From: Artemia franciscana
Taxonomy: Eukaryota; Arthropoda; Branchiopoda; Anostraca; Artemiidae
Length of the DNA: 64,000 bases
Reading direction: 5' to 3'
Assembly (NCBI RefSeq): GCF_032884065.1
Contig: NC_088865.1
Location: forward strand, 48,830,868-48,894,867
The notes under the pieces are model-generated. The model did no database searches. It was not told where the DNA came from and was given only the letters and a program-made list of their open reading frames with translations. Below are positions 4,565 through 58,512 of this stretch, piece after piece (positions within the stretch are counted from its first letter, which is position 1; each line of letters begins with the position of its first letter). The position numbers and the translations under genes are program-made.

Positions 4565-4796
4565 GAAAACATCTGTCTAGAATTAGATACCATAAATTTC
4601 AAACCAGTAAGCTTTTTCAGTGAATTTAATTCCTGCGAAGCTAGTTAGATTTCGCAATACCTGGCAAAGGATTAAAGTTCGTGATCTTGAGTAAAATTAT
4701 TACTCAGCATTTCAGTAAGTGAGAGATAATCCTATGGTCATAATTATCAAATCATATAGACTCATTTAACCGGCTTGGATACGGACTTAGATAAGA

Positions 4797-5093
4797 TTAA
4801 ATAAAAAAAACTAGTTTTTTTAACTGAAAGTAAGGAGCGACATTAAAACTTAAAACGAACAGAAATTACTCCGTATATGAAATGGGTTGTCCCCTCCGCA
4901 GTCCCTCGCTCTTTACGCTAAAGTTTGACTCTTTGCCACAGTTCTACTTTTTAAAACAATTAAAAACTTTAGCGTAAAGAGCGAGGGACTGTGGAGGGGA
5001 CAACCCATTTCATATACGGAGTAATTTCTGTTCGTTTTAAGTTTTAATGTCGCTCCTTACTTTCAGTTAAAAAAACTAGTTTTTTTTATTTAA
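4797..5093. repeat. Long near-perfect palindrome, copy P1
   Basis: Two arms of about 130 bp flank a spacer of about 38 bp. The arms run from TTAAATAAAAAAAACTAG through CTGAAAGTAAGGAGCGACAT to CTCGCTCTTTACGCTAAAG, then back in reverse complement. I see one mismatch in the inner 105 bp (CCGCAG against CCACAG). The copy-specific AGTCCCTCGC is present in both arms. As single strand or RNA it would fold into a very long hairpin. Confidence 0.92.
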
Positions 5094-6523
5094 TTTCTGA
5101 ACGTTTTTGAATTAATGCATGTTTGATTTTGCCTCTCCGCACATAAATCATTGAAATGAAATTAGTATATTAATTTTTTTTTTGGCTAAATGGCTTTCTC
5201 TTAGTTTTGATCAGACGATTTTGAGAAATAAGGGGTGGGGAAGGAGGCCTAGCTGCCCTCCAATTTTTCGGTTACTTAAAAAGGCTACTAAAACTTTTAA
5301 TATTCAACGAACGTTTTTATTAGTAAAAAATATACGTAACTTAAGAATTAACTTACATAACAAACTTTTATATTCTTATATTTTTATTATGTGTGCGAGG
5401 GGGTTTGTACCCTCGTTAATACCTCGCTCTTTACACTAAATCGTAAGTTTTGTCCCAATTCTTTAAGAATGACCCCTGAATCAAAAAGGCCGTAGAATAA
5501 ATAGTTGAAATCACTAAAAATATTTTAGCATAAAGAGCGAGGTATTTATCTCCTCCTAAATACCTCGCTCTTTATGCTAAAGTATTTTTAGAACCCCTCA
5601 TATGCGTAATAATCTCTGTTCGTTTTAAATTTCAATGCTATTCCTTACTTTCATTTGAAAAAACGTTTTCATATTTTTTTTTTCATTGTTTTTTTATAGT
5701 AATGCTAGAAAATCCTGTGCCCTTTTCATTGAATTTTTCTTCCCCCATGACATATTCCTCAAAGGAAAGATCCTCCCACAAAGCCCTCTCCCATCAACCC
5801 CGCCCCCAAACCAAAAAATCCCCATGAAAACGTCTGTACACTTCCCAATAACCATTACTATATGTAAACACTGGTCAAAGTTTGTAACTTGCAGCCCCTC
5901 CCTCAGGGATTGTGGGGGAGTAAGTCATTCCCAAAGACATAGTTATTATGGTTTTCGACTATGCTGAACAAAATGGCTATCTTAAAATTTTAATCTGTTG
6001 ACTTTTGGAAAAAATTAGCATGGGAGGGGGCCTATTTGCCCTCCAATTTTTTGGTCACTTAAAAAGGGCACTAGAACTTTTCATTTCCGTTAGAATGAGC
6101 CCTCTCGCGACATTCTAGGACCACTTGGTCGATAAGATGACCCCTGGGGAAAAAAAAACAAACAAATAAACACGCACCCGTGATTTGTCTTCTGGCAAAA
6201 AATACAAAATTCCACATTTTTTTGATAGGAGCTTGAAATTTTTGCTATAGAGTTCTCTGATATACCGAATGCGATAGTGTGATTTTTGTTAAGATTCTAT
6301 GACTTTTAGGGGATGTTTCCCCCCTTTTTCCAAAATAGGGCAAATTTTCTCAGGCTCGTAACTTTTGATGACAAAGACTAAATTAATTGAAACTTATATA
6401 TTTAGAATCAGCGCAAAAATTCGATTCTTTTGATGTATCTTTTAGCATCAAAATTCCGTTTTTTAGAGTTTCGTTTACTATTGAGCCGGGTCGCCCCTTA
6501 CTACAGTTCCTTACCACGAACTG
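4797..6523 (-). repeat. Hairpin/foldback composite repeat, copy B (full length)
   Basis: A complete unit in reverse orientation: the long palindrome (4797-5093), then a middle module whose own start is an imperfect foldback (about 5395-5640, CCTCGCTCTTTA in opposite orientations), then the hairpin module ending at 6504-6523. One hairpin arm has a substitution (CAGTTCC). No ORF is conserved between copies, so the element appears non-autonomous. Confidence 0.85.
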
Positions 6524-6857
6524 TTTGAAAAGAAAATAATTTGGTATTTCGGGGCTTCTGACATTATTACTGCTTTGTGGAAGTTAGGCTCAAAATTGAA
6601 AAAGGATTATATTTTTTCTCTGGGCCCCTTCCACCTCTTAGTTCGTTTATTTTCCCGTTAGTTTTCACCTGTTTTCGCTTTATAGTTGTGTTATCTCTTA
6701 GCAGTTCTTTCGTTAGTTGAGTTATGGCTGTGGTATATATGTTTTATCGCTCGTATAGTTGTGTTATTTTCAAATTATACTCCATAATAGAGAGGCTCCG
6801 AACACCCAGTATTGTATATTAAGCACTTAATTTGACGTTTTTTTCTAACGTGACCAG
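6524..6857. repeat. Linker segment duplicated at 52721-53065
   Basis: This stretch, which starts AAAGAAAATAATTTGGTATT and contains CTCTTAGCAGTTCTTTCGTT, is nearly identical to the segment between copies H and I near 52.7-53.1 kb. Palindrome, composite unit, linker and next unit therefore form one larger repeat of at least 2.4 kb. Confidence 0.85.
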
Positions 6858-11008: not shown

Positions 11009-11010
11009 AA

Positions 11011-11470
11011 CGTGCAGAAATCAACATGAGTAGGGGTCAAAACCCTATGCATTCCCAAGGCCAGAGCACGATTTGCACGTTACTGAACAAAAATTAATGT
11101 TATCACTTTTATAACTTAAATCACGTATTATTAACATTTTAAGGAATAAATATCAGAATATGTACATTAAACTGACTATACCCATTCATTTGTATTTTTT
11201 TTAAGTAAAGTGCAAATTATGTTCTGACCTTGGGAAGGCATAGGGGTTTTGAGCGCTACCAATGTTGATTTCTGCTTGTTTTAAGTTTGACTCGGTTATT
11301 TATTGTAATTTCTGTTCGTTTTGGGCTTTATCGTACCCAAACATTTATTCATCGAGGCTAACTTGTGGAAGTTTTCGCTTCGTAGATTATTTGATTCTGT
11401 TTTCGCTCATTTTTTATTTAAAGCAGTTTCTAACTTTTCTTTGAAAAACTTATTTTGTGGAGCAATATTT
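11011..11470. repeat. Second foldback family, copy 1
   Basis: An inverted-repeat element whose arms pair GCAGAAATCAACATGAGTAG (about 11014) with the stretch ending GTTGATTTCTGCTTG (about 11276). Inside them, ACCCTATGCATTCCCAAGG pairs with CCTTGGGAAGGCATAGGGG. A sister copy lies at 31620-32105 and shares the right flank to CTTATTTTGTGGA. It interrupts the LINE ORF2. No coding capacity. Confidence 0.8.
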
Positions 11471-12227: not shown

Positions 12228-12428
12228 TTGCATTGGTTGTGGAAGAGCTTGAATTAACTCCCACGCAGTATAGACCATCAGAATCCCCCCAAAAACTAGC
12301 TGAGATGACAGGATTCACGCCAAAACAAATTAAAGAAATGTACCGGGCATTCAAGAGTGAATGTCCTAGTGGAGTTGTCACGGAAGCAAAATTTGCGGAA
12401 GCTTTTTCCAAATTTTATCCAACAACTG
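12228..12428 (+). CDS. KChIP-like EF-hand calcium sensor, exon (N-terminal half)
   Basis: This internal exon has 66 full codons plus partial ones, between acceptor TTATCTTAG and donor ACTG|GTAATT. It encodes ...EELELTPTQYRP, a helix KLAEMTGFTPKQIKEMYRAF and KSECPSGVVTEAKFAEAFSK, ending FYPTT. From what I know of Kv channel-interacting proteins, this matches the segment before and through the degenerate first EF hand, whose loop there also starts with CPSG. That loop is not expected to bind calcium. It joins the exon at 20924 in phase 1 (G + AT = Asp), giving FYPTTDSTLF, as in FFPxGDxSxY of the family. The protein would be a cytoplasmic or membrane-associated calcium sensor that modulates A-type K+ channels. 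The true 5' exon with the start codon is not found. An ATG-initiated frame from 12194 is open but runs through the acceptor, so I do not use it. The exon end seeds the tandem array that follows. Confidence 0.82.
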
Positions 12429-14456
12429 GTAATTTAAGTTCAATTATTATATAACAGTGAAAGATTTTGGTAATTAGAGGAGAATTTTCGGAAGCTTTTT
12501 CTAAATTTTATCCAACTACTGGTAATTTAAGTTTAATTATTATATAACAGTCAAAGATTCTGGTAATTGAAGGAAAATTTGCGGAAGCTTTTTCCAAATT
12601 TTATCCAACTACTGGTAATTTAAGTTCAATTACTATATAACAGTCAAAGATTCTGGTAATTGAAGGAAAATTTGCGGAAGCTTTTTCTAAATTTTATCCA
12701 ATTACTAGTAATTTAAGTTCAATTATTATATAACAGTAAAATATTCTGGTAACTGAAGGAAAATTTGCGGAAGCTTTTTCCAAATTTTATTCAACTGCTG
12801 GTAATTTAAGTTCAATTACCATATAACAACCAAAGATTCCGGTAATTGAAGGGAAATTTGCGGAAGCTTTTTCTAAATTTTATCCAACTACTGGTAATTT
12901 AAGCTCAATTATTATATAACAGTCAAAGATTCTGGCAATTGAAGGAAAATTTGCGTAAGCTTTTTCCAAATTTTATCCAACTACTGGTAATTTAAGTTCA
13001 ATTATTATATAACAGTCAAAGAATCTTGTAATTGAAGGAGAATTTGCGGAAGCTTTTTCCAAATTTTGTCCAACTACTGGTAATTTAAGTTCAATTATTA
13101 TGTAACAGTGAAAGATTTTGGTAATTAAAGGAGAATTTTCGGAAGCTTTTTCTAAATTTTATCCAACTACTGGTAATTTAAGTTTAATTATTATATAACA
13201 GTCAAAGATTCTGGTAATTGAAGGAAAATTTGCGGAAGCTTTTTCCAAATTTTATCCAACTACTGGTAATTTAAGTTCAATTATTATATAACAGTCAAAG
13301 AATCTTGTAATTGAAGGAGAATTTGCGGAAGCTTTTTCCAAATTTTGTCCAACTACTGGTAATTTAAGTTCAATTATTATATAACAGTGAAAGATTTTGG
13401 TAATTAAAGGAGAATTTTCGGAAGCTTTTTCTAAATTTTATCCAACTACTGGTAATTTAAGTTTAATTATTATATAACAGTCAAAGATTCTGGTAATTGA
13501 AGGAAAATTTGCGGAAGCTTTTTCCAAATTTTATCCAACAACTGGTAATTTAAGTTCAATTATTATATAACAGTGAAAGATTTTGGTAATTAAAGGAGAA
13601 TTTTCGGAAGCTTTTTCTAAATTTTATCCAACTACTGGTAATTTAAGTTCAATTATTATATAACAGTAAAAGATTCTGGTAACTGAAGGAAAATTTGCGG
13701 AAGCTTTTTCCAAATTTTATTCAACTGCTGGTAATTTAAGTTCAATTACCATATAACAACCAAAGATTCCGGTAATTGAAGGAAAATTTGCGGAAGCTTT
13801 TTCTAAATTTTATCCAATTACTAGTAATTTAAGTTCAATTATTATATAACAGTAAAAGATTCTGGTAACTGAAGGAAAATTTGCGGAAGCTTTTTCCAAA
13901 TTTTATTCAACTGCTGGTAATTTAAGTTCAATTACCATATAACAACCAAAGATTCCGGTAATTGAAGGGAAATTTGCGGAAGCTTTTTCTAAATTTTATC
14001 CAACTACTGGTAATTTAAGCTCAATTATTATATAACAGTCAAAGATTCTGGCAATTGAAGGAAAATTTGCGTAAGCTTTTTCCAAATTTTATCCAACTAC
14101 TGGTAATTTAAGTTCGATTATTATATAATAGTCAAAGATTCTGGTAAACGAAGGAGAATTTGCGGAAGCTTTTTCCAAATTTTATCCAACTACTTGTAAT
14201 TTAAGTTCAATTATTATATAACAGTCAAAGAATCTTGTAATTGAAGGAGAATTTGCGGAAGCTTTTTCCAAATTTTATCCAACTACTGGTAATTTAAGTT
14301 CGATTATTATATAACAGTCAAAGATTCTGGTGATTGAAGGAAAATTTGCGGAAGCTTTTTCCAAATTTTATCCAACTACTAGTAATTTAAGCTCAATTAT
14401 TATATAACAGTCAAAGATAGTGGTAATTTAAGTTCAATTATTATATAACAGTCAAA
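12397..14456 (+). repeat. 93-bp tandem array (22 units) seeded by an exon end and its splice donor
   Basis: GGAAGC recurs at 12397, 12490, 12583, 12676 and onward to 14350, exactly 21 steps of 93 bp, so there is no net indel. The first unit is the end of the coding exon itself. Each unit has the exon tail (GAAGCTTTTTCCAAATTTTA), a copy of the donor CTG|GTAATTTAAG and the intron's TATATAACAG. Unit variants recur in blocks: TTTTCGGAAGC types at 12490, 13141 and later; the GCGTAAGC variant at about 12953 and 14069, which is 12 units apart. This points to amplification of multi-unit blocks. The array ends with a fragment at 14419-14456. Confidence 0.95.
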
Positions 14457-16129
14457 TATTATTAGAAACATCAAGGGCATCGGCAGAAAATTTTCCAGGG
14501 GAGAGAGCAAACGCCAAAATATCAGTGGTGGTTGGGTTACAGGGAATATATTTCAGGATTTCCTTTTCCTTGGAATAAGTTTATTTTTTAATACTTTTAG
14601 GAAAAAACTCTCAAATAAAAATAGCAATTAAACTGCATGCAAAATGAAATAAAATACAGTAAATTTTAAACTACAAGGATTCCTCGCAAAGGGATTTATT
14701 TATTTAGCCAATAATATATTTAATTATTATGCATTTAAACTTAAAAGAAAATCAAACACAAACCAAAATTACAGAAAGATTTATTGCTTCCGTAGATTAT
14801 AACAGATGAAAACTTGTCTTCATGCAATTTCCTACGCCTCAGAGTAGTTTACAGAATTTATTTCTTTCATAACAGGACAATTCTCCCTCTCGAACGTAAA
14901 TCCCTCATAAAACTTACTTATTTAAACTTACTATCCAGCTATTAAATTAACCCTCTTTCTTTTTATTGTCCTATTCAACTAAATAAAATAAACAGGTTCA
15001 AAAGAATTTCGCCATAGGAAAATCTTTTCAAATAGTTTGTGATAAAAAACTGGAAGTAAAAAGTTATTTGGATCAATATTGACCAAAACTAAAAATCTCA
15101 TGAGATGTAGATGTAGATTTTAAATAATTCTCATGAGAATTATTTCAGCGGCAGTATTGGCTTTTCATACTAATTTTAAATACGTAAAATTCTTTCACTT
15201 TATTGTTACCCACCCAAAACCAAAAATTTGAGAGAATGTGCCCGATTTTTGAAAAAAGAGGAAACACCCCGAAAATGCAAGTGACCTTATTTTTAATCTA
15301 TTTATTTGATACATCATATCAGGGAACCTTACCATAGATTTTTTAAGCTCTAATCTTCTAAGTGTGAAATTTCGCATTTTTTTCAGAAAAGAAGCATAAA
15401 TTTTAGGTCTTTTTAAGTGACCACATAGATTGGCCCAGGGGACAGTCTTGTTTTCTTGCTATTTTAGGGTGCTACACTACGGCTATACCTCGAATATGTC
15501 GAATTTGCAATCAATTTAAAATTCTGAGAAGCTAATTGATTTAAAAGTATCAACAACTATACTTTAGGCTTTCCAGTTGCAGAAGAAGTAATGCCACATG
15601 GTGGCAGCACTGGATTCAACCAAGTTGATTCACTTTATTTGCAATGAAATTAGGCTACGTTTGGTGATCCGTAATTGCGTATCAGCTATAGTGAGGAGGG
15701 GGATCATTGTTCAGATGGGTGTAGGATAGATTCCTAAAAAAACTTATTTTAATGGACAAACTGCTTACTCTTCATCAGGCCTCGGATAAATGTTGAAAGA
15801 GGTAGGGGGAGGAGAAATTAATTAAATGTTTCCCTATACATCTAAAATGTTACATTCCCATATCTACCAGTACAGAGGCAAGGCATCATCAGCCCCGCAA
15901 GGAAATTTCTTTGGGATGGCAAATACTGCTGGGAACTTAGTTCTCAGCAATCTTAGATGGCGTTATCTTCTTTTTCTTTTTGTATGAAGTACTTCAACGT
16001 ATAAAAGGAATTGCATGTAATGTATTTATCGATAAGAAAATCTTATTGTGGAGGTTGTGATGGCTTCAGTTATGTAGTTATGTCAGTTATCAAAAGTCTC
16101 ACAAAATTTCATCCATACAAACAATAATG
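14457..16129. other. Intronic sequence with a very diverged composite repeat
   Basis: No exon is recognised. Around 15195-15450 the order of landmarks (GAAACACCCCGAAAATGCAA, ATCAGGGAACCTTACCATAG, CTTTTTAAGTGACC) matches the hairpin module at low identity, suggesting an old copy on the + strand. The rest is unassigned. Confidence 0.45.
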
Positions 16130-26299: not shown

Positions 26300-28408
26300 A
26301 TTTAGACAGACAGACATAGACATTTTTTATTTTCATCCATAACATATAAATTAAACAAAGAATTTACCATTAACAGCCACTCTTAAGACAAAAGAGTCCT
26401 GACTGTGGCCGCAATTCTAACCACCGTGAATCTGCTAAATCATTTCTTCAAATGATTTTGAAGAAAGAAAAAAAAATCCTTGGGGGGGGGAAACAAAATA
26501 TTTAATATTAAATACTAAATAAATAAATACCCTTTCCTCTTATCACACTTCTCTCCTTTTTAAAAAATGGAATTTAACCATTCTTTTGAATGATGCCAGA
26601 CTTACTGCCGCTCTGACCGATTCTGGAAGGTCATTCCAGACGCTGACACCTATGTTCCTGAGAACAAATCCTGCTCTCGTTGCATTTCTTTTCTCGTGAG
26701 TCAAATCCTCCGAATTCTGGGTAAAATAAGGGTGATAAAACGAGTTAGTCTTAAAAAAATCATAAAAGTACTCAGGGCTTACCTTCTTTACACTTTGAAA
26801 AACAAAAATCGCTAGCTGGCAATCACGTAGCTCGCCTATGTTCAAAATATCATTCTTTCTAAAACACTCCGCAGTATTCTGACAGTTTTGAAATTCTCCT
26901 ATCAGACGCAGTGCTTTGTTTTGTATTATTTGAGTTCTTTTATAATTCTTCACGGAATTGCTTGCCCAAACAGAACAACCGTACGTGATGTAAGGGTGCA
27001 CAATAGCACTGTATAACAATTTGACAACTGCTACCGGGAACACTTTTTTCAGCCTCCTCATCACTCCCGATCCTCTAGCTGCTTTTGCCGACACTATTTC
27101 ACCATGCTTCTTCCAAGACAAATTACAATCAATATAAAATCCGAGATATTTACAAAAAAACACCTGTGTTATGCTAACACCGTTATAAAGCACATTTTCA
27201 AGAAGTTCAGGTACACCAGTTCTACCAAACACCATAAAATTTGTTTTTCTTGGATTTACTGCAAGGAAGCTTAGAGCTGTAAAAACATGAAGCCAACTAA
27301 GGACGTGGTTCGCTTTTTGCACAACCTCTTTTGAAGTCCGGGCAAACACTGTGATAGCTGTATCATCGGCGAAAGAGGTTAAAACTGAATCATTTAGGTA
27401 AAATCGAAGAGTATCCACATATACAAAGAAGAGTAACGGACCAAGGACTGATCCTTGGGAAACACCGCAATTTATAGGCATAGCTGCGCTAGATATATCA
27501 CTCATCACCACCTTCATTGTTCTTCCACGCAGATAAGACCGAAACAAACTTTATGCTGTATCTTTAATTCCAAGGTTCCGCAGTCTTTTCAGTAGAACTT
27601 CAAAATCCACAGTGTCAAACGCCTTCTTCAAATCAATAAAAATAGTTAGAGGGATCAAATTATTTTCTAACGCACTATTTACACAATCTAAAAGGTGATG
27701 AACGGCATGCACTGTAGAATGACCTTTTCTTAAACCAAACTGCGAATCTGACAAAAACCCAAGCGAATTCATGTACTCGTATATTTTCTTATACACTACT
27801 TTTTCATAAAATTTTTGAGAAGAGCGGTAGAATAGATATTGGTCTCCAGTTGGAAATATCTCTTTTATCGCCTCCTTTATGGAGGGGTATAAATTTTGCC
27901 CGCTTTAGTTCGTCAGGAAACACACCTTTTTGAACAGATAAATTGACTAGATATAATATCACAGGTAAGAGATACGCAGCAACTGCTTTAAATGCTTTAA
28001 TGGTTAGGCCATCAACACCAGCTGCATTAGATTTGATCGGTTTCACTGCTTGGGTAATGTCATCCATGGTACATTCGGTAAAGTAAAATGAGTGATGAAG
28101 ACCGCGGTTATGGTCAAACTGCTCAGTATCTAGCTATCCGCTTTGATCTTTTGCCTCTTGGTTTATTTGCGATGCTATTTTGGTAAAAAACTTACAAAAC
28201 TCTTCACTAACTTCTTGCCTCCCACTCACAGTTTTTTCACCTATGGCTAACTGTTCAGTTGATGCTGAATCCTTACCATTACCGAGAACGCTTTTAATAG
28301 TCAGCCAGGTCCCTCTAATGTCTCCTTTCTGCGACTTTAATTTCTCCCCGAAATACTCCCTCATTGCAGCTCGTCGTGCAGAATTCACCCTATTTCTTGC
28401 CTATTGTC
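26300..28408 (-). mobile_element. 5'-truncated LINE, nearly readable
   Basis: A LINE inserted in a tandem-repeat unit. From its 5' (high-coordinate) end it holds the linker, the whole RT and the C-terminal region, then a 3' untranslated part and an ATGAAAATAAAAAATGTC-like end near 26320. The 5' end with the endonuclease is missing. It has only two in-frame stops and one frameshift over about 600 codons, far fewer than the other LINEs here, so it is the youngest. Confidence 0.88.
26543..28408 (-). pseudogene. LINE ORF2 reverse transcriptase, lightly damaged
   Basis: Order from the N-terminal side: basic linker (RNRVNSARRAAMREYFGEKL), RT start (NAAGVDGLTIKAFK), KFIPLHKGGDKRDISNWRPI, SQFGLRKGHSTVHAV, FIDLKKAFDTVDF (first catalytic Asp), GVSQGSVLGPLLFFVYVD, TSFADDTAITVF (catalytic FADD intact), CKYLGFYIDCNLSW thumb region, and a C-terminal end VWNDLPESVRAAVSLASFKR. 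The end and FADD box are of the Jockey/CR1 type. Breaks: a TAG at about 28132-28134, a one-base frameshift at about 27800-27830 (FSKIL to YEKVVYKK), and a TAA at about 27548-27550 (DTA*SLFRSY). All catalytic boxes are otherwise well kept. Confidence 0.9.
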
Positions 28409-42752: not shown

Positions 42753-45604
42753 CGGTGCAGTATGAAAATGAAACATCAATTACGATTCTATAGCAAAATT
42801 ATATATTCAAAAAAGAAAGAGATCGGTTTTGTTTCGTTTTCTAAATATATTTCATTAATTTTTGAAAGTAATTGCGGGTCATTGGTTGTCTTCATTGTAA
42901 ATCAAAAGTTTGAGTATGATTTCTTAATCGGGTTTGCTATTAGTTTAGAGCACGTCCAAGCCAATTGATCGACTCGATCTACGCTCTGGGTTGTTATCCT
43001 TTCCAAAAATTATTATAAATAATAACTTGTCAACTTGGTCTTTGCTAATTAAATGATTTTCATGCACATTTTTTTGCAGTTTTTGCAAAAACATTTCAAT
43101 TCTCCAAATGTATTTTGCTTGAACATACATATTGACGCATTATGTCAAATGTATGGGTTTATATTTAACTAACATTTTATCAATAACTTAAAGCCAGAGC
43201 CCCAGCAGAGGTTGGGGATGGGGAAGGACGTAAAGTTACTTTTTAGAGCCGTTTATGGCAATGAACGGTAAGTAGAGAATGACCGATTTCAACCTTAACA
43301 AAAAATAAATAAAAAATGATGGGAGTACAGAAACAACATAAATTGAACATCCTCTAAATTAAATAAGTTGAAAAAGCTTTTGGAATAAAAATAAAGAGTA
43401 ACACTGAAATATGAAATGAAAAAAAGAATCATGTGTATAAATGAGGAGGGCTATCGCCCCCTTTAGCTCTTCCCACCAGTATTTAGAATTTTTTCAGTTC
43501 TTCAACATTGAATTATTTTAACGTAATACTAATGCAGGTAGGGTTTCCTACAGGTAGGGTAGGGGTTAATCCAGGGGGTTTGGGCTTTTGAACCCTCCCC
43601 CTCCCGACATGTTTGTCTGATTCGTAAAAACGTAAAAAAATGAATATAAATAACCTTTTGATGGGTTAAAAAAAAAATTTGTAATCCCCCCTAAAAAAAA
43701 TCCTAGGATTAACCCCCCGAAAATAAATCCTGGATACGGCCCTGCTATTGTAAAAATCACAAAGTTTCCAGGATGAAAATATAGCATAGATAGAATTCTT
43801 CGGAGAGAATATTGCTTAACAAGATAATGAATAAACAATATTCTAACTCGCGTACTCGGCAAGCTTCTGAAGCCTTACAGCAGCCTTTATGTCCAAGCTC
43901 TAACTACACTGTAGTTACTAAATCTCACATTATCTAGATCTCAGATATTATAAAAATTACACAAAGCCAGAGCAATTAAACTTCTTATGGATGCCTCTTA
44001 TGGCGGCCTGCTTTCCACAGTTTTCCTTTGTAGTACCCATAGTTTTTTCAATAAAATGTATATTTTCATCATATGTTGGTATATTTCATTAGAATTAAAC
44101 TAATTTTACTTTTCGAGTGTGTTCTGTATAACCTATAAGTACCGAAAATAGTGTCACTTGGTCTCTACATAAAGACTTTGGGGTCTTAACCTAGCCAGGG
44201 TCAGTCACTGTAATACTTCGCTGGGGCCTAATGAAAATTGAGAATTGAATTTTCCAATTTTTGCCTAAAGCTTCTGAAATTGCAATGCACCCGCTTACCT
44301 TAGAGCAGGTTTGCCACTCGTTGAAAAAAAAAATCACTATATTTCAGTGATTTCTTGGTTGATTTAGCAATTGTCTTCAATAATCTAGTGAATTGTGTGC
44401 GGATTTAGTGATTTTTTGCTTAGGCAATAAAAAAATCACTAGGAATAGTTACAAATCACTAGGGGTGGCAACTTTGCCTCACAGACATTTAAGTGATAGA
44501 ACAGCAAACAAAACTTTGTTTGTTTGAACATAAATTAGATCCAATCAGGTAATGCAGCTAGCTAAAAGATCTGGATAAGGCATCCCCCTCCCTTTCTCTG
44601 TCTTGGAAAGAATAAACTTGTGTTACTGTACGTGTATCTTACGAGTGTGCACATCACTTAATTCTTTAAAATCAAAATTAATCTGTGCCAACCCCTTACT
44701 ATTCAGTTATAATTTTGCTAATGACACCCCCTATAGATCAACCCTGTCTAGGAAAGTATCCCTAAATATAAGCAGTCATTCAACGAGGTCAGAGAGAGGG
44801 CTGAGGAGAAAACTAAGTTGAGAAACAAAAGGGATAGCAAATGTCTCCTAAATTAAGAAAATGTATTTTTTTGTTACTTTCGTTTAAAAATTTAAAAATA
44901 CAACATCAGCCTCCCCCCAAATCAGCCTCAACATATTTTCGCCCGGCTCCACATTAATCGTGAATTCGCAACCCTAGGAGGAGGGTTCGAACCCTTATCT
45001 TGATGCATGAGTGATATTATTAATACAAATATTCTATTGCATAATATAATAGAAATTTATCACAGTTTTAACATTTTAGCTTTCTCCTCTCCCTGTCCCA
45101 GAAACAAAATCCTTGCTATGGCCGTAACTAAAAATCTTAATTAAAAAGGTTCATACCATGCACTTCATCTTTGCTAGACTAAAGTTGAGCTTGGAAATCA
45201 CAGAAGAGCTAGAAAACGAATGATGTTTGAGTGAATAATTCCCATCTGTTATATACTAGAATCTAATCAAACAAGTAACCACACCCAAAGTCTTAATGTT
45301 AAGAACCCATCAAGAAAGCGGAACTATAGCAAAGGCAAGGACCTCTGAAACTGTTAATAGTCCGTTATTGATGACGTTATTTTTTTATAAAGAAGAATAT
45401 TGCATAAAATTCTTGGGGCTCTATGATGCACTTGGGGGAAAATAAACTAAACCAATAGTATAGAAAATATACAAAGAAAATTTTTGTCTTCAAACGAAAC
45501 TAAAAAACGACATAATACTTAGAAAGAACTGACATGAAGGGAGCTGACACCCCTAACTTTACCCTCTTCATTCCAAATTTTGACTAATGCTATTCTGAAA
45601 GCAT
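42753..45604. other. Mostly unassigned region with a MITE-like end
   Basis: A TGGATACGGCCCTGC end at 43731-43745, with a pyrimidine-rich inner part and a possible partner near 43540, resembles the TIR element at 3058-3249. ATCACTA words recur at 44330-44465. No coding gene, tRNA or rRNA is supported. Confidence 0.4.
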
Positions 45605-47290
45605 CAAACAGTTCGTGATAACGGACTGTAGTAAGGAGCGACCCGGCTCAATAGTAACCGAAACTTTTAAAAATGGAATTTTAATATCAATAGTTACATC
45701 AAAAGGATTGTATTTTAATGCTGATTTTAAATATATAAGTTTCATCAAGTTAAGCTTTACCCATCAAAAAATACGAGTCTGAGAAAATTTGCCTTACTTT
45801 AGAAAACAAGAAGAAACACCCCTTAAAAGTGCTAAAAATCTTAGCGGAAATCACACCATCAGATTCAGCATATCAGAGAACCCTACAGTAGAAGTTTCAA
45901 GCTCTTATCCAAAAATATGGAATTTTGCATTTTTTGCCACAAGACAGATCATGGATGCGTGTTTATTTGTTTGTTTGTTTTTTCCCAGGGGTTATCATAT
46001 CAACCCAGTGGTCCTAGAGTGTCACGAAAGGGCTCATTCTGACGGAAATTAAAAGTTCTAGTGCCCTTTTTAAATTACCGAAAAATTGAAAGGCACCTAG
46101 GCCCCCTCCCACGCTCATTTTTCCCAAAGTCACTGGATCAAAATTTTGAGATAGCCATTTTATTCAGCATATTCAAAAACCAAATAACTATGTATTTGGG
46201 GACGACTTACTCCCCCACAGTTCCCGTGGGAGGCGCTGCAAGTTACAAACTTTGACCAGTGTTTACATATGGTAATGGTTATTGGGAAGTGTACAGACGT
46301 TTTCAGGGGGATTTTTTTGGTTGGGGGGAGGGGTTGAGGGGAGGGGGTTTAGTGGGGGAAATTTCCATGGAAGAATCTGTCATAGGGGAAGAGAATTTCC
46401 ATGAAAGGAGCGCAAGATTTTCTAGCATTAAAAAAAATGAAAAATAAATATGAAAAAGTTTTTTCAACTAAAAGTAAGGAGCAGCATTAATACTTAAAAC
46501 GAACCAATATTATTACGCATATGAGGGGCTCATCTCCTCCTAATACCTTGATCTTTACGCTAATGTATTTTTAGTAATTTCAACTATTTATTCTACGGAC
46601 TTTGTGATTCGGGGGTCATTCTTAAGGAATTGGGACAAAATTTAAGCTTTAGTGTAAAAAGCGAGGTATTGAAGAGGGGGTGAACCCCCCCCCCATATAC
46701 GTAGTAAAAACATACGCATATAGAATGTCGTTACGCGAGTTAATTCGTAAGTTAAGTATATTTTTACTAATAAAAACGTTCGTAAAAAATCAAAGTTCTG
46801 GTTGCCTTTTTAAATAACCAAGAAATTGGAGGGTAACTAGGCCTATTCTCGCTCTTTTTTCTCAAAATCGTCCGATCAAAACCATTTAGCCATTTAGCCA
46901 AAAAAAAAAAAAATCATATGCAAATTTCGTTTTAATTATTCATGTGAGGAGAGCCAAAATCAAAACATGGATTAATTTAAAAACGTTCAGAAAATAATAA
47001 AATAACAAGTTTTTTAAACTGAAAGTAAGGAGCGATATTAAAACTTAAAAACGAACAGAAATCACTCCGTTTATGAAAGTTGCTGTTCCCTCCTCAACGC
47101 CCCCTCTTTGCGCTAAAGTTTTTAATGTTTTAAAAAGTAGAGTTGAGAGAAAGAGTCAAACTTTAGCGTAAAGAGCGAGGCGTTGAAGAGGGAACAGTCC
47201 CTTTCATAAACGTTGTAATTTCTGTTCGTTTTTAAGTTTTAATATCGCTCCTTACTTTCAGTTTAAAAAACTTGTTTTTTTATTTTATTT
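45605..47290 (+). repeat. Hairpin/foldback composite repeat, copy F (full length)
   Basis: Begins TCAAACAG with the hairpin at 45609-45628 (one mismatch, GTGATAACGGACTG). The hairpin module, middle foldback (about 46500-46705) and terminal palindrome (about 46995-47290) are all present in order. It is the clearest complete + strand unit. Confidence 0.9.
46995..47290. repeat. Long palindrome, copy P2
   Basis: Terminal palindrome of copy F. Both arms carry the same changes not seen in other copies: GCGATATT instead of GCGACATT, one extra A in CTTAAAAACGAAC, and GTTTATGAAA instead of GTATATGAAA. Arms differ at several other positions. Confidence 0.88.
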
Positions 47291-50503: not shown

Positions 50504-51041
50504 CAGTTCGTGGTAACAGAACAAAGACACAGTTATTAGGTTTTTCGACTATGGTGAATAAAATGGCTATATCAAAATTTTGATTTGGTGACTTTTGGGG
50601 AAAAATGAGCGTGGGAGGGGGTCTAGGTGCCCTCCAATTTTGTTGTTCACTTTAAAAGGGCACTAGAACTTTTAATTTCCGTTAGAATGAGCCCTTTCGC
50701 AAGATTCTAGGACCACTGAGTCGATACGGTCACCCCTGGGAAAAAAAAACAAAAAAAAAAAAAATAAATAAACACGCATCCGTGATCTGTCTTCTGGCAA
50801 AAAAACGCGAAATTCCACATTTTTGTAGATAGGAGCCTGAAACTTCTACAATAAAGTTCTCTGATACGTTGAATCTGATGGTGTGATTTTCGTTAAGACT
50901 GTATGACTTTTAGGGGGTGTTTCCTCCTATTTTCTAAAACGAGGCAAATTTTCTCAGGCTCGTAGCTTTTGATGGGTATAACTGATCTTGATGAAACTTG
51001 TATATTTAAAATCAGCATTAAAATGTGATTCTTTTGATGTA
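50504..51041 (-). repeat. Composite repeat, copy G, rearranged
   Basis: Fourteen bases of a + strand hairpin end (CAGTTCGTGGTAAC at 50504-50517) join directly to reverse-orientation hairpin-module sequence. That sequence runs to TTCTTTTGATGTAA, where the next unit's palindrome begins. The reverse copy lacks its own hairpin. The join implies an inversion or a template switch between copies. Confidence 0.8.
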
Positions 51042-51340
51042 ATTACATAAAAAAAACTAGTTTTTCTAACTGAAAGTAAGGAGCGACATTAAAACTTAAA
51101 ACGAACAAAAATTACTCCGTATATGAAATGGGCTGTCCCCTCCGCAATCCCTCGCTCTTTACGATAAAGTTGGACTTTTTGCCACAATTCTACTTTTTAA
51201 AACAATTAAAAGCTTTAGCGTAAAGAGCGAGGAATTGCGGAGGGGACAACCCATTTCATATACGGAGTAATTTCTGCTCGTTTTAAGTTTTAATGTCGCT
51301 CCTTACTTTCAGTTAGAAAAACTAGTTTTTTTTATGTAAT
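51042..51340. repeat. Long palindrome, copy P3
   Basis: Both arms share two private features: the outermost bases are ATTACATAAA/TTTATGTAAT where other copies have TTAAATAAA, and TTCTAACTG/CAGTTAGAA where others have TTTAACTG. Arms are otherwise near-identical, with a few differences such as GGGCTGTC against GACAACCC. Confidence 0.9.
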
Positions 51341-52720
51341 TTCTGAAAGTTTTTGAATTAATGCATGTTTGATTTTGGCTCTCCACACATAAATTATGTG
51401 TACATTTTAATTCCTTTTTTGGCTAAATGGCTTTCTCTTAGTTCTGATCAGACGATTTTGAGAAATAAGGTATGGGGAAGGAGGCCTAGTTGCCATGCAA
51501 TTTTTCGGTTACTCAAAAAGGCAACTATAATTCTTTTATTAGTAAAAAATATACGTAACTTAAGAATTAACTTACGTAACAAACTTTTATATTCTTAAAT
51601 TTTTATTATGTATATGAGGGGGTTTGTACCCTCGTTAATACCTCGCTCTTTACACTAAATCGTAAGTTTTGTGCCGATTCTTTAAGAATGACCCCTGAAT
51701 CAGAAAGGCCGTAGAATAAATAGTTGAAATTACTAAAAATACTATAGCATAAAGCGCGAGGTATTTATCTCCTCCTGAATACCTCGCTCTTTATGCTAAA
51801 GTATTTTTAGAACCCCTCATATGCGTAATAATCTCTGTTAAGTTTCAATGCTACTCCTTGCTTTCAATGGAAAAAACTTTTCCATGTTTATTTTTTCATT
51901 GTTTTTTTTTATAGTAATTTTAGAAAATCCTGCGCCCTTTTCATTGAATTTCTGTTCCCCCATGACATATTTCTCCAGGGAAAGATCCTCCCACATAGCC
52001 CCCTCTCCTCAACCCCACCCCCAAAACAAAAAAAAATCCCCTGAAAACGACTGTACACTTCCCAATAACCATTATTATATTTAAACACTGGTCGAAGTTT
52101 GTAACTTGCAGCCCCTCCCTCAGGGACTGTGGGGGAGTAAGTCATTCCCAAAGACATAGTTATTATGGTTTTTGACTATGCGGAACAAAATGGCTATCTC
52201 AAAATTTTGATCTGTTGACTTTGGAGAAAAATGAGCGTGGGAGGGGGCCTAGGTGCCCTCCAATTTTTTTGGTCACTTAAAAAGGGCACTAGAACTTTTT
52301 ATTTCCGTTAGAATGAGCCCTCTTGCAACATTCTAGGATCACTTGGTCGACACGATGACCCCTGGGGAAAAGAAAAAAAACAAAACAAATAAACACGCAG
52401 CCGTGATTTGTCTTCTGGCAAAAAATACGAAATTCCATATTTTTATAGATAGGAGTTTGAAAATTTTGCTATAGGGTTCTCTGATACGCCGAATGTGATG
52501 GTGTGACTTTCGTTAAGCTTGTAAGACTCTTAGGGGGTGTTTTCCCCTATTTTCTAAAATAAGACAAATTTTCTCAGGCTCGTAACTTTTGATGACAAAG
52601 ACCAATTTTGATGAAACTTATATATTTTGATGTATATTTTAGCATCAAAATTCTATTATTTAGAGTTTCGTTTACTATTGAGCCGGGTCGCTCCTTACGA
52701 CAGTTCGTTACCACGAACTG
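51042..52720 (-). repeat. Hairpin/foldback composite repeat, copy H (full length)
   Basis: Palindrome at 51042-51340, middle module with its foldback (about 51610-51840), and hairpin module ending with the perfect hairpin at 52701-52720. It is the counterpart of copy B in a larger duplicated block. About 55 bp of the hairpin module near 52628 are missing relative to copy B. Confidence 0.9.
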
Positions 52721-53065
52721 TTTTAAAGAAAATAATTCGGTATTTCGGGGCTTCTGACATTATTACTCCTTTGCGGAAGTTAGGCTCAAAATTCGAAAAG
52801 GATTATATTTTTTCTCTGGGTCCCTTCCACCTCTTAGTTCGTTTATTTTCCCGTTAGTTTTCACCTGTTTTCGCTTTATAGTTGTGTTATCTCTTAGCAG
52901 TTCTTTCGTTAGTTGAGTTATGGTTGTGGTATATATGTTTTATCGCTCGTATAGTTGTGTTATTTTCAAATTATACTCCATAATAGAGAGGCTCCGAACA
53001 CCCAGCATTGTATATTAAGCTCTGAATTTGACGTTTTTTCTAACGTGACCAGATTTGTTCTGCGC
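52721..53065. repeat. Linker segment duplicated at 6524-6857
   Basis: Near-identical to the linker between copies B and C, including TTAGTTCGTTTATTTTCCCG and GAGAGGCTCCGAACACCCAG. It follows the hairpin of a full unit in both places. Confidence 0.9.
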
Positions 53066-53931: not shown

Positions 53932-54380
53932 CCCCAGGGGTCATCGTATCGACCAAGTGGTCCTAGAATGTTGCAAGAGGGCTCACTCTAACGGAAATGA
54001 AAAGTTCTAGTGCCCTTTTTAAGTGACCAAAAAAATTGGAGGGCATCTAGGCCCCCTCCCACGCTCATTTTTTCCCAAAGTCAACGGATCAAAATTTTGA
54101 GATAGCCATTTTGTTCAACATAGTCGAAAACCATAAAAACTATGTCTTTGGGGATGACTTACTCCCCCACAATCCCTGGGGGAGGGGCTGCAAGTTACAA
54201 ACTTTGACCAGTGTTTACATATAGTAATGGTTATTGGGAAGTGTACAGACGTTTTCAGGGGGATTTTATTTTGCTTGGGGGTGGTGCTGAGGAGAGGGGG
54301 CTATGTTGGAGGATCTTTCCTTGGAGGAATCTGTCATGGGGAAAGAAAAATTCAATGAAAAGGGCGCAGGATTCTCAAGC
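53531..54380 (+). repeat. Composite repeat, copy J (hairpin module)
   Basis: Starts TCAAACAG with a perfect hairpin at 53535-53554 and includes a T run of about 29 at 53902-53930. It ends abruptly at the next unit's TCAAACAG, so hairpin-ended units are placed head to tail here. Confidence 0.88.
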
Positions 54381-54382
54381 AT

Positions 54383-56009
54383 CAAACAGTTCGTGGTAAC
54401 GAACTGTAGTAAGGAGCGACCCGGCTCAATAGTAACCAAAACTCTAAAAAATGGAATTTTGATACCAATAGCTACATCAAAAGAATCGCATTTTAATGCT
54501 GGTTTTAAATATATAAGTTTCATCAAGTTTAGTCTTACCCATCAAAAGTTACGAGCCTGAGAAAATTTGCGAAAAGTTTCGAGCTCCTATCTACAAAAAT
54601 GTGGAATTTTGCATTTTTTGCCAGAAGGCAGATCACGGATGCGTGTTTATTTGTTTTTTTGTTTTTTTGTTTTTTTGTTGTTTTTTTTTCCCCAGGGGTG
54701 ATCGTATCGACCCAGTTGTCCTAGAATGTTGCAAGAGGGCTCATTCTAACGGAAATGAAAAGTTCTAGTGCCCTTTTTAAGTGACCAAAAAAATTGGAGG
54801 GCACCTAGGCCCCCTCCCACGCTAATTATTTTCCCAAAGTCAACGGATCAAAATTCTGAGATAGCCATTTTATTCAGCGTAGTCAAAAAACCTTATAACT
54901 ATGTCTTTGGGGACGACTTACTCCCCCACAGTCCCCGTGGGAGGGGCAACAAGTTACAAACTTTGACCTGTGCTTACATATAGTAATGGTTATTGGGAAG
55001 TATACAGGCGTTTTCAGGAGGATTTTTTTGGTTTGGGGGAGGGGTTGAGAAGAGGGGGATATGCTGGGGGAACTTTCCTTCGAGAATTTGTAATGGGAGA
55101 AGAAAATTTCCATGAAGGGAGAGCAGGATTTACTAGCATTATTAAAAAAAAAACAATTAAAAAATAAAAGTGAAAAAGCTTTTTCAGCTGGAAGTAAGGA
55201 ACAGCAATAAAACTTAAAACAAACAGAAATTATTACCCATATGAGGGGCTCACCTCCTTCTAATACCTCGCTCTTTACGCTAAAGTATTTTCGGTAATTT
55301 CAACTACTTATTCTACGGCTTTTGTGATTCAGGGGGTCATTCTTAATGAATTGGGATAAAATTTAAGCTTTCGTGTAAAGAGCGAGGTACTGACGATGGG
55401 GCGAATCCCCTCATATATGTAATAAAAACATGAGAATACAAAAGTTCTTTACGTAAGCTAATTTATAAGTTACGTAAATCTTTTACCAATAAAAAGATTC
55501 GTAAAAAATTAAAAGTTCTAGTTGCCTTTTTAATTAACCAAAAAATCGGGGGGCAACTAGGCTTCGTCCCCCGCTCTTTTTTTCTCAAAATCATTCGATC
55601 AAAATTATGAGAAAGCCATTGAGCCCAAAAAAAAATATGCAAATTTCGTTTTGATCATTCCTCTGCGGAGAGCCAAAATCAAAACATGCATTGATTCAAA
55701 AACGTTCAGAAATTAAATAAAAAAAACAAGTTTTTTCAACTGAAAGTAAGGAGTGACATCAAAACTTAAAACGCACAGAAATTACTTCGTATATGAAAGA
55801 GGCTGCTTCCTCATCAACGCCCCGCTCTTTACGCTAAAGTTTTTTACTGTTTTAGAAAGAAGAATTGAGAGAAAGAGTCAAACTTTAGCGTAAAGAGCGG
55901 GGCGTTGATGAGGAAGCAGCCTCTTTCATATACGAAGTAATTTCTGTGCGTTTTAAGTTTTGATGTCACTCCTTACTTTCAGTTGAAAAAACTTGTTTTT
56001 TTTATTTAA
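54383..56009 (+). repeat. Hairpin/foldback composite repeat, copy K (full length)
   Basis: Starts TCAAACAG, hairpin at 54387-54406. A deletion in the hairpin module (after GAGAAAATTTGC, 54570) removes about 70-110 bp. The middle module's foldback is at about 55240-55420 and the palindrome at 55713-56009. Confidence 0.9.
55713..56009. repeat. Long palindrome, copy P4
   Basis: Both arms share private changes: GAGTGACATC against GATGTCACTC, AAAACGCACAG against CTGTGCGTTTT, TTACTTCGTA against TACGAAGTAA, and GCTTCCTCATCAACG against CGTTGATGAGGAAGC. Apart from the spacer the two arms look identical, though they differ from other copies at about ten positions. Confidence 0.93.
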
Positions 56010-56024
56010 TTACTATAAGAAAAC

Positions 56025-56919
56025 AATGAAAAATAAACATGAAAACGTTTTTTCAAATGAAAGGAAGAAGTAGCATTGAAACTTAAAACGAACAGAGATT
56101 ATTCCGCATATGAGGGGTTCTAAAAATACTTTAGCATAAAGAGTGAGGTATTTAGGAGGAGATAAATACCTTGCTCTTTATGCTAAAGTATTTTTAGTAA
56201 TTTAAACTATTTATTCTACGGCCTTTCTGATTCAGGGGTCATTGTTAAAGAATTGGGACAAAACTTACGATTTAGTGTAAAGAGCGAGGTATTAACGAGG
56301 GTACAAACCCCCTCGTATACATATTAAAAATATAAGGTTATGAAAGTTTGTTACGTAAGTTAATTGTTAAGTTACGTATATTTTTTACTAATAAAAACGT
56401 TCGTTAAATATTAAAAGTTCTAGTTGCCTTTTTAAGTAACCGAAAAATTGGAGGGCAACTAGGCCTCCTTCTCCACCCCTTATTTCTCAAAATCGTCTGA
56501 TCAAAACTAAGAGAAAGCCATTTAGCAAAGAAAAAAGAATTATTATACAAATTTCATTTTAATAATTTATGTGCGGAGAGCCAAAACCAAACATGCATTA
56601 ATTCAAAAACGTTCAGAAATTAAATAAAAAAAAAATAATTTTTTTAGCTGAAAGTAAGGAGCGACATTAAAACTTAAAACGAACAGAAATTACTCCGTAT
56701 ATGAAATGAGTTGTCCCCTCCGCAATCCCTCGCTCTTTACGCTAAAGTTTGACTCTTTGCCACAATTCTACTTTTTAAAAAAAATTAAAAGCTTTAGCGT
56801 AAAGAGCGAGGGATTGCGGAGGGGACAACTCATTTCATATACGGAGTAATTTCTGTTCGTTTTAAGTTTTAATGTCGCTCCTTACTTTCAGCTAAAAAAA
56901 TTATTTTTTTTTTATTTAA
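56025..56919 (+). repeat. Composite repeat, copy L (middle module and palindrome)
   Basis: Lacks the hairpin module. The middle module carries an extra foldback (CTTTAGCATAAAGAGTGAGG against CCTTGCTCTTTATGCTAAAG at 56133-56190). Palindrome P5 is at 56620-56919; its arms share GAGTTGTCCCC/GGGGACAACTC and AGCTGAAAG/CTTTCAGCT, both private to this copy. Confidence 0.9.
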
Positions 56920-57376
56920 TAATAAATAAACACGCACCCGTGATTTGTCCTCTGGCAAAAAATACAAAATTCCACATTTTAGTAGATAGGAGCTTGAAAC
57001 TTCTACAATAGGGTTCTCTGATACGCTGAATCTGATGGTGTGATTTTCGTTAAGATCCTACGACTTTTATGGGGTGTGTTTCCCCCTATTTGACTAAATA
57101 AGGCAAATTTTCTCAGGCTCGTAACTTTTGATGGGTAAGATTAAACTTGATGAAACTTGAATATTTAAAATCAACTTTAAAATGCGATTCTTTTGATGTA
57201 GCTATTTATATCAAAATTCAATTTTTTAGAGTTTTGGTTACTATTGAGCCGGATCGCTCCTTACTACAGTTCGTTACCACGAACTGTTTGACTATTGGTA
57301 TCAAAATTCCATTTTTTAGAGTTTCGGTTACTATTGAGCCGGGTCGCTCCTTACTACAGTTCGTTACCACGAACTG
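56920..57376 (-). repeat. Composite repeat, hairpin end with a duplicated terminus
   Basis: A truncated reverse hairpin module ends with a hairpin at 57267-57286. The last about 90 bp of the end then occur a second time, with another hairpin at 57357-57376. The second end has GGGTCGCTCC where the first has GGATCGCTCC, so it came from a different copy or diverged afterwards. Confidence 0.88.
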
Positions 57377-57967
57377 TTTGATAAGTTACATTAAGTTTAG
57401 ACTTACCCATCAAAAGTTACAAGCCTGAGAAAATTTGCCTTATTTTAGAAAATAGGGAAACATCCCTTAAAAGTCATAGAACCTAAACGAAAATCCCACC
57501 ATTGGAGTGTCACTAGGCCTACTCCCTCGCTCCTTTTTTCCCAAAATCGTCCGACCAAAACTATGAGAAAGCCATTTAACCATAAAAATAAATTAATATG
57601 CAAATTTCGTTTTAATTATTATCCATGTGCGGAGAGCCAAAATCAACACATGCATTAAATCAAAAACGTTCAGAAATTAAATATAAAAAAGTTTAAAGTT
57701 TTTTTTAAGGAGCGATATTAAAAATTAAAACGAACAGAAATTACTCCATATATGAAAGAGGCTGTTCCCTCCTCAACGCCCCGCTCTTTACGCTAAATTT
57801 TTTTACTATTTTAAAAAGTAGAGTTGAGAGAAAGAGTCAAACTTTAGCGTAAAGAGCAAGACGTTGAGGAGGGAACAGCCCCTTTCATATACAGAGTAAT
57901 TTCTGTTCGTTTTAAGTTTTAACATCGCTCCTTACTTTCAGTTAAAAAAACTTATTTTTTTATTTAA
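57377..57967 (+). repeat. Composite repeat, internally deleted copy with palindrome P6
   Basis: A piece of forward hairpin module (to AAATCCCACCATT, about 57500) joins the end of the middle module and a palindrome at 57677-57967. The palindrome's left arm has lost part of the CTGAAAG segment. The arms are less alike than in P4 or P5. Confidence 0.85.
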
Positions 57968-58512
57968 TTATGGTTTAAAATGATGCTGGGAATTTAAATT
58001 TCTTCTAGAAAAGGCAGCAATTATTGGACCAACTGTTTGATACATTCTTCCCTGATTAACAAAAAAAAAATGAAAAACAAACAAACATGTATCCATTGCC
58101 AAATATTTTCATGCTACCCACTTTTGACGGGAAACCATAATTTTAATGAACTTTAAAACCTTTGACTCAACATAATAACTTGTGTCAGCAATTTTAAAAA
58201 ATTTTTAATTTTTTCTACTGTTTCAATCGCTATTAACAAGAGTTGCTCTTTACTGAATGTCCACAAACATTAACGATTTGATAACCTTCGTTGAACTTTC
58301 CTCGAGATATCAAAAATAAAAATAATTTAAAGTCGTCTCAACGTGGCATAACCGGAGAATAGAAGGAGTTCTGAGGCTCATGAATGTGAGGCTCATTAAG
58401 CTCACGGATGGGACGTTGGGCCTATTTTATACCCCTTGACTTATTCTTTCACATTTCAAAATAGTTAGAGCAAAAATATTTTGAACAGTATGAGTTTAGT
58501 CTCTGAATTTTA
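57968..58512. other. Unassigned sequence
   Basis: No gene or named repeat seen. CTTTAAAACCTTTGACTCAA and GAGTTGCTCTTTACTGAAT hint at a very old composite copy, but I cannot support it. Confidence 0.4.

Follow-up and report, generated by a model that had tools for sequence, protein, structure and literature searches.

When both arms of a long palindrome carry the same changes, either the arms have corrected each other or each copy was given two like arms when it was made. This question is raised by P4, a palindrome at positions 55712-56010 of the window, by which we mean the whole stretch of 64,000 nucleotides of the Artemia franciscana genome that was analysed. P4 consists of a proximal, body-side arm (55712..55839, + strand), an asymmetric 43-nt spacer (55840..55882, + strand) whose orientation to the body differs among copies, and a distal arm (55883..56010, - strand) that is also the 3' end of an element. 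The two 128-base arms are inverted copies of each other and identical at 128/128 positions, which bears out the observation of an earlier note that the same listed changes occur in both arms. Folded as single-stranded DNA, P4 has an energy of -161 kcal/mol, where 100 shuffled sequences average -29 (sd 3.9), and the inverted repeat far exceeds chance. The earlier note had also described mirrored changes in every copy. Related arms are present in the other palindromes of the window, namely those forming the 3' ends of two full minus-strand copies (4795..5095 in the copy at 4797-6529, arm divergence 1.5%; 51041..51341 in the copy at 51043-52725, 5.3%) and of a full copy on the + strand (46990..47290 in 45602-47287, 9.9%), a neighbouring + strand palindrome of another arm subfamily with its spacer inverted relative to its body (56619..56920, 0.8%) and an older one, also on the + strand (57679..57970, 19.7%). 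As a rule for each copy the description failed, one-arm differences being present in all sampled copies except P4.

The earlier note had spoken of an unnamed foldback element; the palindrome is not free-standing, and proved to be the 3' end of a longer element. Comparison of copies gave an element of ~1.6-1.7 kb that has TCAAACAGTTCGTGGTAACGAACTGT as its 5' end, contains a diverged hairpin, B, in its interior and is closed on the 3' side by the palindrome, A. The element ending in P4 occupies 54382..56010 on the + strand, starts with TCAAACAGTTCGTGG... at 54382 and is matched by the element profile at 54380-54570 and 54572-56009. Four nucleotides from its 5' end lies a perfect 9-bp inverted repeat with a 4-nt loop (ACAGTTCGT GGTA ACGAACTGT; 54386..54407, + strand), followed by AGTAAGGAGCGAC, which returns inverted near the 3' end of the element; 29 such 5' ends were found by a motif search of the window and loci. 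Its B hairpin (55172..55424, + strand; arm-profile matches 55172-55286 and 55365-55424), whose arms differ by 25%, served us as an internal control. The 3' border is backed by 37 of the 40 fetched palindromes, in which unrelated sequence follows ...ATTTAAT or a close variant, the exceptions being a truncated copy (L030) and two palindromes with body flank on both sides (L031 and L044). In 24 ten-kb loci distant from the window the element profile, short partial matches included, covers 37,022 of 240,000 bases, and a 36-base body flank of the element has 6,074 exact occurrences genome-wide, this and the other genome-wide counts of the element having been made with exact patterns or with patterns allowing the mismatches stated. 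The window's ORF list holds no ORF of at least 100 aa within 54382..56010. We take the palindrome to be the hairpin that terminates, on the 3' side, a transposable element which is abundant in A. franciscana and apparently non-coding.

Several further features of the element and its surroundings were noted. The flanks of 36 P4 insertions (L029-L068, leaving out L030, which has no distal end, L031, L033, L044 and the window copy) are A/G-rich at positions +7 to +11 past the 3' end, with 91% A or G at +11, which suggests a target preference. One group of copies has a second short, near-perfect hairpin within the B region (window 5514-5591, 51733-51810 and 56120-56197) that the other aligned B units do not have. 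Elsewhere in the window there are a tandem array of about 22 copies of a 93-bp unit (12291-14543) and reverse transcriptase fragments (Pfam RVT_1; 10656-11033 and 26543-27547), the remains of retroelements.

The earlier note had asked for a tree of arms, in which arms pairing by copy would speak for homogenisation and arms pairing by side would speak against it. The comparison took in 23 palindromes, each oriented by its body, which were drawn from the window and from 28 loci of ten kb, four of these loci adjoining the window; a low-scoring pair with an unlike spacer (L002_3249) had been dropped before the comparison of spacers and arms. Divergence between the arms of one copy ranged from 0 (P4) to 27%, and for 14 of the 46 arms the nearest arm was its own partner. 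After leaving out L008_2351 and L008_3115, which are duplicates of L007, the within-copy divergence of the remaining 21 copies was 13.1%, against 18.9% with partners permuted, a value as low being reached in 0/20,000 permutations. Between copies, arms of the same side and arms of opposite sides were equally distant (19.23% and 19.23%), i.e. there is no side signal. The tree therefore supports pairing by copy, with sister arms in 8/21 copies and no clustering by side, yet 13 of the 21 copies were not paired; these are compatible with decay after insertion and weaken the tree as a test. The B hairpin behaved differently: in 26 units, which still contain the L008 duplicates, arms differed by 27.0% within a copy, by 21.9% between copies on the same side and by 27.2% between copies on opposite sides. 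In P4's own element the arms of B differ by 25% and those of A by 0. Since B pairs by side and A by copy, homogenisation belongs to the A palindrome and is not shared by every inverted repeat of the element. Compared with A, the spacer of B is longer (about 80) and its arms have diverged further.

The changes in the two arms of P4 had been described as private to that copy, a description that did not survive a search of the genome. A diagnostic 29-mer of P4 occurs 2,045 times, and the 149-base junction comprising body flank, arm and spacer start has 765 matches at <=3 mismatches, all those listed being exact. Among the first 100 places listed for the 29-mer 43 palindromes have the sequence in both arms and 14 have it in a single arm, the partner of the last of these possibly falling beyond the places listed. 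The changes are thus common to a subfamily of roughly a thousand palindromes and mark a young subfamily in whose source they were already present. A mirrored change is consequently no proof of conversion in place in the copy that carries it, since a source whose arms were already symmetric can hand it down, as happened in P4 and in L062, described below, and mirrored differences should not be taken as evidence private to a copy.

One-arm and mirrored states of the same change coexist in the genome. For an unselected view we used the first 21 palindromes of the 29-mer list minus L029, which is inverted and had already been fetched. In these 20 consecutive young palindromes (L049-L068) there are 28 one-arm and 2 mirrored substitutions, and 16 one-arm and 3 mirrored indel positions, largely in an A-run. 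From these counts coincidence alone would give about 0.03 mirrored substitutions; mirrored substitutions are nevertheless few, so that conversion must be rare in any one copy. Exact genome-wide searches returned 54 one-arm and 11 mirrored palindromes for the P103 variant, 50 and 1 for the L053 type, 1 and 3 for the L048 type, and 11 and 28 for the L062 type, where a one-arm match may hide a mirrored copy with a further change in the searched stretch of the other arm (the other arm was read in L050, L056 and L065 only) and some may be recurrent mutations. The single-arm matches were proximal in 11/20 for the L053 type, with one undecided, and in 14/20 for P103. The mirrored change of L062, one of the two mirrored substitutions just mentioned, was rejected as a single-copy event, since 28 mirrored palindromes form a sublineage to which it belongs. 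Conversion within a single copy has its best candidate in L053, because its change is found in one arm only at 50 other places; we caught no pair of ancestral and derived alleles at one locus in this one assembly of one species, and the lone mirrored L053 comes nearest to it. In one region (C303, 28432 to 53215) four P103 one-arm matches lie about 8.25 kb apart, a likely tandem array.

A rare marker in the body flank, present at 60 places compared with 6,074 for the standard form, allowed us to ask whether a one-arm state is passed on. Scored by arm match, with the opposite arms left unread, ten of the 60 marker elements match P103, where about 0.6 would be expected (probability 8e-10); nine have it in the proximal arm, one in the distal arm (C1:24756528) and none in both. 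The nine proximal matches sit on eight contigs. Among the 20 consecutive palindromes P103 is proximal in three, with the distal arm unchanged at the site in L050 and L065 and another base there in L056; L042 and L043 have another one-arm change in common. Taken together, the tagged copies strongly indicate that a one-arm state has passed through several insertions, and nine of ten on one side would be unlikely for a mirrored lineage in decay.

The spacer provides evidence of a different kind. It is inverted relative to the body in 7 of the 23 mixed-age copies (6 of 21 without the L008 duplicates), and at 33 of 798 P4-type junctions, the other 765 being those found at <=3 mismatches. Among the first 21 palindromes listed by the 29-mer three are inverted (L029, L057 and L063), two of which (L057 and L063) the strict inversion pattern missed owing to small differences. 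We fetched 20 of the 33 inverted places, ten of them exact and ten chosen by the letters shown, so that frequencies within this set have no meaning; it includes L031 and L044, where body flank lies on both sides and the orientation depends on the side of reading. In these two, two bodies sit on one common terminal palindrome. Inversions are present on both spacer haplotypes of P4 and hence arose at least twice there, and inverted spacers are also found in other arm subfamilies. As inversion of the spacer needs an interaction of the arms, it is independent evidence of arm exchange. Two of the 11 mirrored P103 palindromes and none of the 54 one-arm ones are among the 33 inversions (p 0.026), a link that is post hoc and small and to which we give no weight. 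The claim that the arms convert each other is thus supported by pairing by copy with no side effect, by both spacer orientations and by one-arm and both-arm versions of the same change.

What happens to a palindrome after insertion could be followed in a segmental duplication (L007/L008; 3.3 kb, 94%) with two palindromes in each duplicate. Since the duplication there have been 0 mirrored and 19 one-arm changes, 14 older side differences have been kept in both duplicates, and 1 column belongs to neither class; the arms are 6-17% apart, so that this comparison covers two palindromes that had already diverged. The lack of detectable conversion in these diverged arms, together with mirrored change in near-identical ones, suggests, from few loci, that exchange needs similar arms and that it is arm similarity which permits it. 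A second pair, the window copies at 4795 and 51041, was set aside as a segmental duplicate with mirrored changes because the two copies do not agree in their 3' flanks and resemble each other less in the body than in the 5' flank; they have a 5' flank in common and three mirrored differences, which could be due to conversion in place. In one palindrome (L022:8888-9187) the arms, 26.5% apart, look like those of different subfamilies, possibly a chimera between elements.

We believe that these observations are probably best explained by occasional templated repair from arm to arm, multiplied by transposition. A mutation would arise in a single arm and, as long as the arms are nearly identical, one arm would occasionally serve as template for the other, either because replication switches templates (quasipalindrome correction) or because repair proceeds with gene conversion, whereby the mutation would be erased or written into both arms. 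Where the exchange ran through the loop, the spacer would be inverted. Transposition would then copy the state of the source, be it one-arm or mirrored, and a mirrored state reaching an active source would become a subfamily marker, such as that of P4. After insertion the arms would drift until, several percent apart, exchange would no longer be seen. Template switching is the route that we infer for the exchange, in preference to the repair of breaks; gene conversion accompanied now and again by a crossover would have identical consequences, and the two are not separable here.

The alternative put forward in the earlier note, that new copies come about when a single arm is copied into a hairpin, would have each transposition fold the 3' end and resynthesise one arm on the other, so that new copies start perfect. 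This would agree with the small arm differences of the youngest copies (0-1.5%), with the mirrored sublineages of 3 and 28 palindromes and with the snap-back structure at L069. There (L069:563-1542; C3 about 1,155,960-1,156,940), a 940-bp inverted structure holds two palindromes with opposite spacers, ~200 bp of body between them copied both ways and other sequence outside, and the arrangement shows copying that turned back at a palindrome and then again about 200 bases into the body, an accident of a kind also to be expected from templated repair between arms. As an obligatory step, however, such rebuilding is improbable: among elements with the rare body marker P103 matches the proximal arm in nine and the distal arm in one, in L050 and L065 it sits in a single arm and the opposite arm was read as unchanged, L042 and L043 have their common one-arm change, and plain snap-back would not produce spacer inversion. 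The tagged one-arm copies make obligatory rebuilding of the hairpin unlikely, and leave occasional rebuilding unopposed.

Transfer of the terminal hairpin in the element's replication, as in parvovirus flip/flop, would have the end opened, copied and inverted during transposition, for which the occurrence of both spacer orientations in several arm subfamilies, the body flank on both sides in L031 and L044 and the inverted structure at L069 can be cited. The two orientations are not near 50:50, however, but about 96:4 in the youngest subfamily (strict pattern) and 18:3 among the first 21 palindromes listed, and hairpin transfer alone swaps the arms without equalising them; we regard it as improbable, and as somewhat less probable than obligatory snap-back. 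Still less probable, to the point of being very doubtful, is selection for a perfect stem, whereby only copies with paired arms would transpose and compensating changes would be kept: the young and numerous subfamily here is indeed symmetric, but a one-arm variant is found in nine tagged elements, selection gives no reason for the inversion of spacers, and single mismatches in a 128-bp stem should matter little. That one arm was collapsed and then copied by the assembler is scarcely credible, even if the evidence comes from one assembly only and some assemblers have difficulty with near-perfect palindromes whose loops are short, given that one and the same mirrored variant can be found at many places (28 palindromes of the L062 type), that the fetched palindromes have unrelated flanks and that the assembly preserved single-base one-arm differences (28 in 20 palindromes).

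Occasional arm-to-arm repair has known counterparts. In yeast, template switching between the arms of inverted repeats gives both homogenisation and spacer inversion (PMC8604942), and RNA hairpins show compensating changes and rare loop inversions (PMC8794818). As in the template switching and quasipalindrome correction described in these reports, the arms become identical and inversion of the loop or spacer is a second outcome; arms that are alike within a copy and not by side, and inverted spacers, are what we found. The inversion examples given there have arms of about 10-16 bp and spacers of 2-5 bases (PMC8604942, PMC8794818), whereas the Artemia element has arms of 128 bp and a spacer of 43, and, unlike in those examples, transposition has spread its outcomes through families whose size ranges from several to about a thousand palindromes. 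A further case is that of the mitochondrial inverted repeats of Nematomorpha, whose arms are identical and differ between individuals and for which template switching has been proposed (PMC6649704), although the repeats described are coding, organellar and non-mobile, unlike the Artemia element.

Among mobile elements, Galileo, a foldback-like transposon of the P superfamily in Drosophila, resembles the Artemia element in that its repeats are similar within a copy and different between copies: in two copies the terminal repeats are >99% identical within and about 7% different between copies (PMC2775673), and exchange and conversion among copies have been proposed (PMC3573991). The repeats of Galileo flank the whole element, whereas in Artemia the two arms are found together on the 3' side and the sequence of the 5' end is another one. 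Long inverted repeats forming both ends, as in foldback elements, are absent, the 5' end beginning with TCAAACAGTTCG and other sequence; no transposase was found in the ORF list of the element, and no target-site duplication was apparent by eye in the flanks of nine copies, at least two of which are without a true end (w59 on the 3' side and L8 on the 5' side).

The element also resembles in part the Helentron-associated HINE / DINE-1 elements and Helitron2 as described in PMC4067079: it is apparently non-coding and of very high copy number, has an inverted repeat at a distance of 4 nt from its 5' end and a palindrome at the 3' end, and its two ends have a subterminal motif in common, in inverted orientation. 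The 9-bp repeat at 4 nt falls within the 2-4 nt given for the palindromic subterminal repeat of HINEs at the 5' end (PMC4067079). The HINE palindrome, in contrast, is defined there as 5-10 bp long and lies inside the 3' end, about 8-35 bp away; no such palindrome was found in the Artemia element, whose palindrome of 300 bp is the end itself, with 128-bp arms reaching it. Nor did we find insertion within TT, the base before the 5' end being A in 66% and T in 21% (n=29) and the first base past the 3' end T in 47% (n=36). With a 3' end and an insertion site that disagree with those of HINEs, we have not filed the element among them. Canonical Helitrons are defined in PMC4067079 by a 3' CTRR and, about 11 bp upstream of it, a hairpin of 16-20 nt; such an end was not found either, the fetched copies ending in ...TTTATTTAAT. 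For the canonical Helitron insertion with 5' TC between A and T, the preceding base is A in 66% of the 29 ends, while TC itself is part of the motif by which these were found and hence gives no independent test.

Genome-wide, 150 of 7,436 candidate matches to Helitron_like_N were scored, and the shortest distance between a Helitron Rep match and P4 palindrome was 23.8 kb, with eight matches listed on C1 below 49 Mb compared with the 57 P4 palindromes listed there. Intact Helitron Rep domains are many; they lie in open frames that extend to about 1,700 aa, one reaching 2,091, and their scores are near-equal among the 150 scored, which suggests recent Helitron activity. Helitrons are reported to make up 8.81% of the A. 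franciscana assembly (PMC11492255), and the element described here may be among those annotated as such. We found no description of an element of this kind from Artemia in the open-access literature searched, which is not proof of absence.

The process by which the arms would be corrected is already known, and what is new is its scale and the natural tags that accompany it. It is unlikely that the element replicates via its 3' hairpin, with a single-stranded or hairpin-ended intermediate copied round the terminal palindrome; if it did, this would give mirrored arms, both spacer orientations and two-sided bodies and, on failure, giant inverted dimers, and the element would be a eukaryotic mobile element with parvovirus-like replication of its end, whose life cycle would include the equalising of the arms, if not in every round. 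Correction between the arms of long palindromes is difficult to measure under natural conditions. The present genome alone offers natural replicates by the thousand, which bear subfamily tags, occur in the one-arm as well as the mirrored state and have the spacer in either orientation. From these replicates the rate of conversion per mutation and of inversion per conversion could be estimated directly, and any dating of such copies by the divergence of their arms must allow for conversion.
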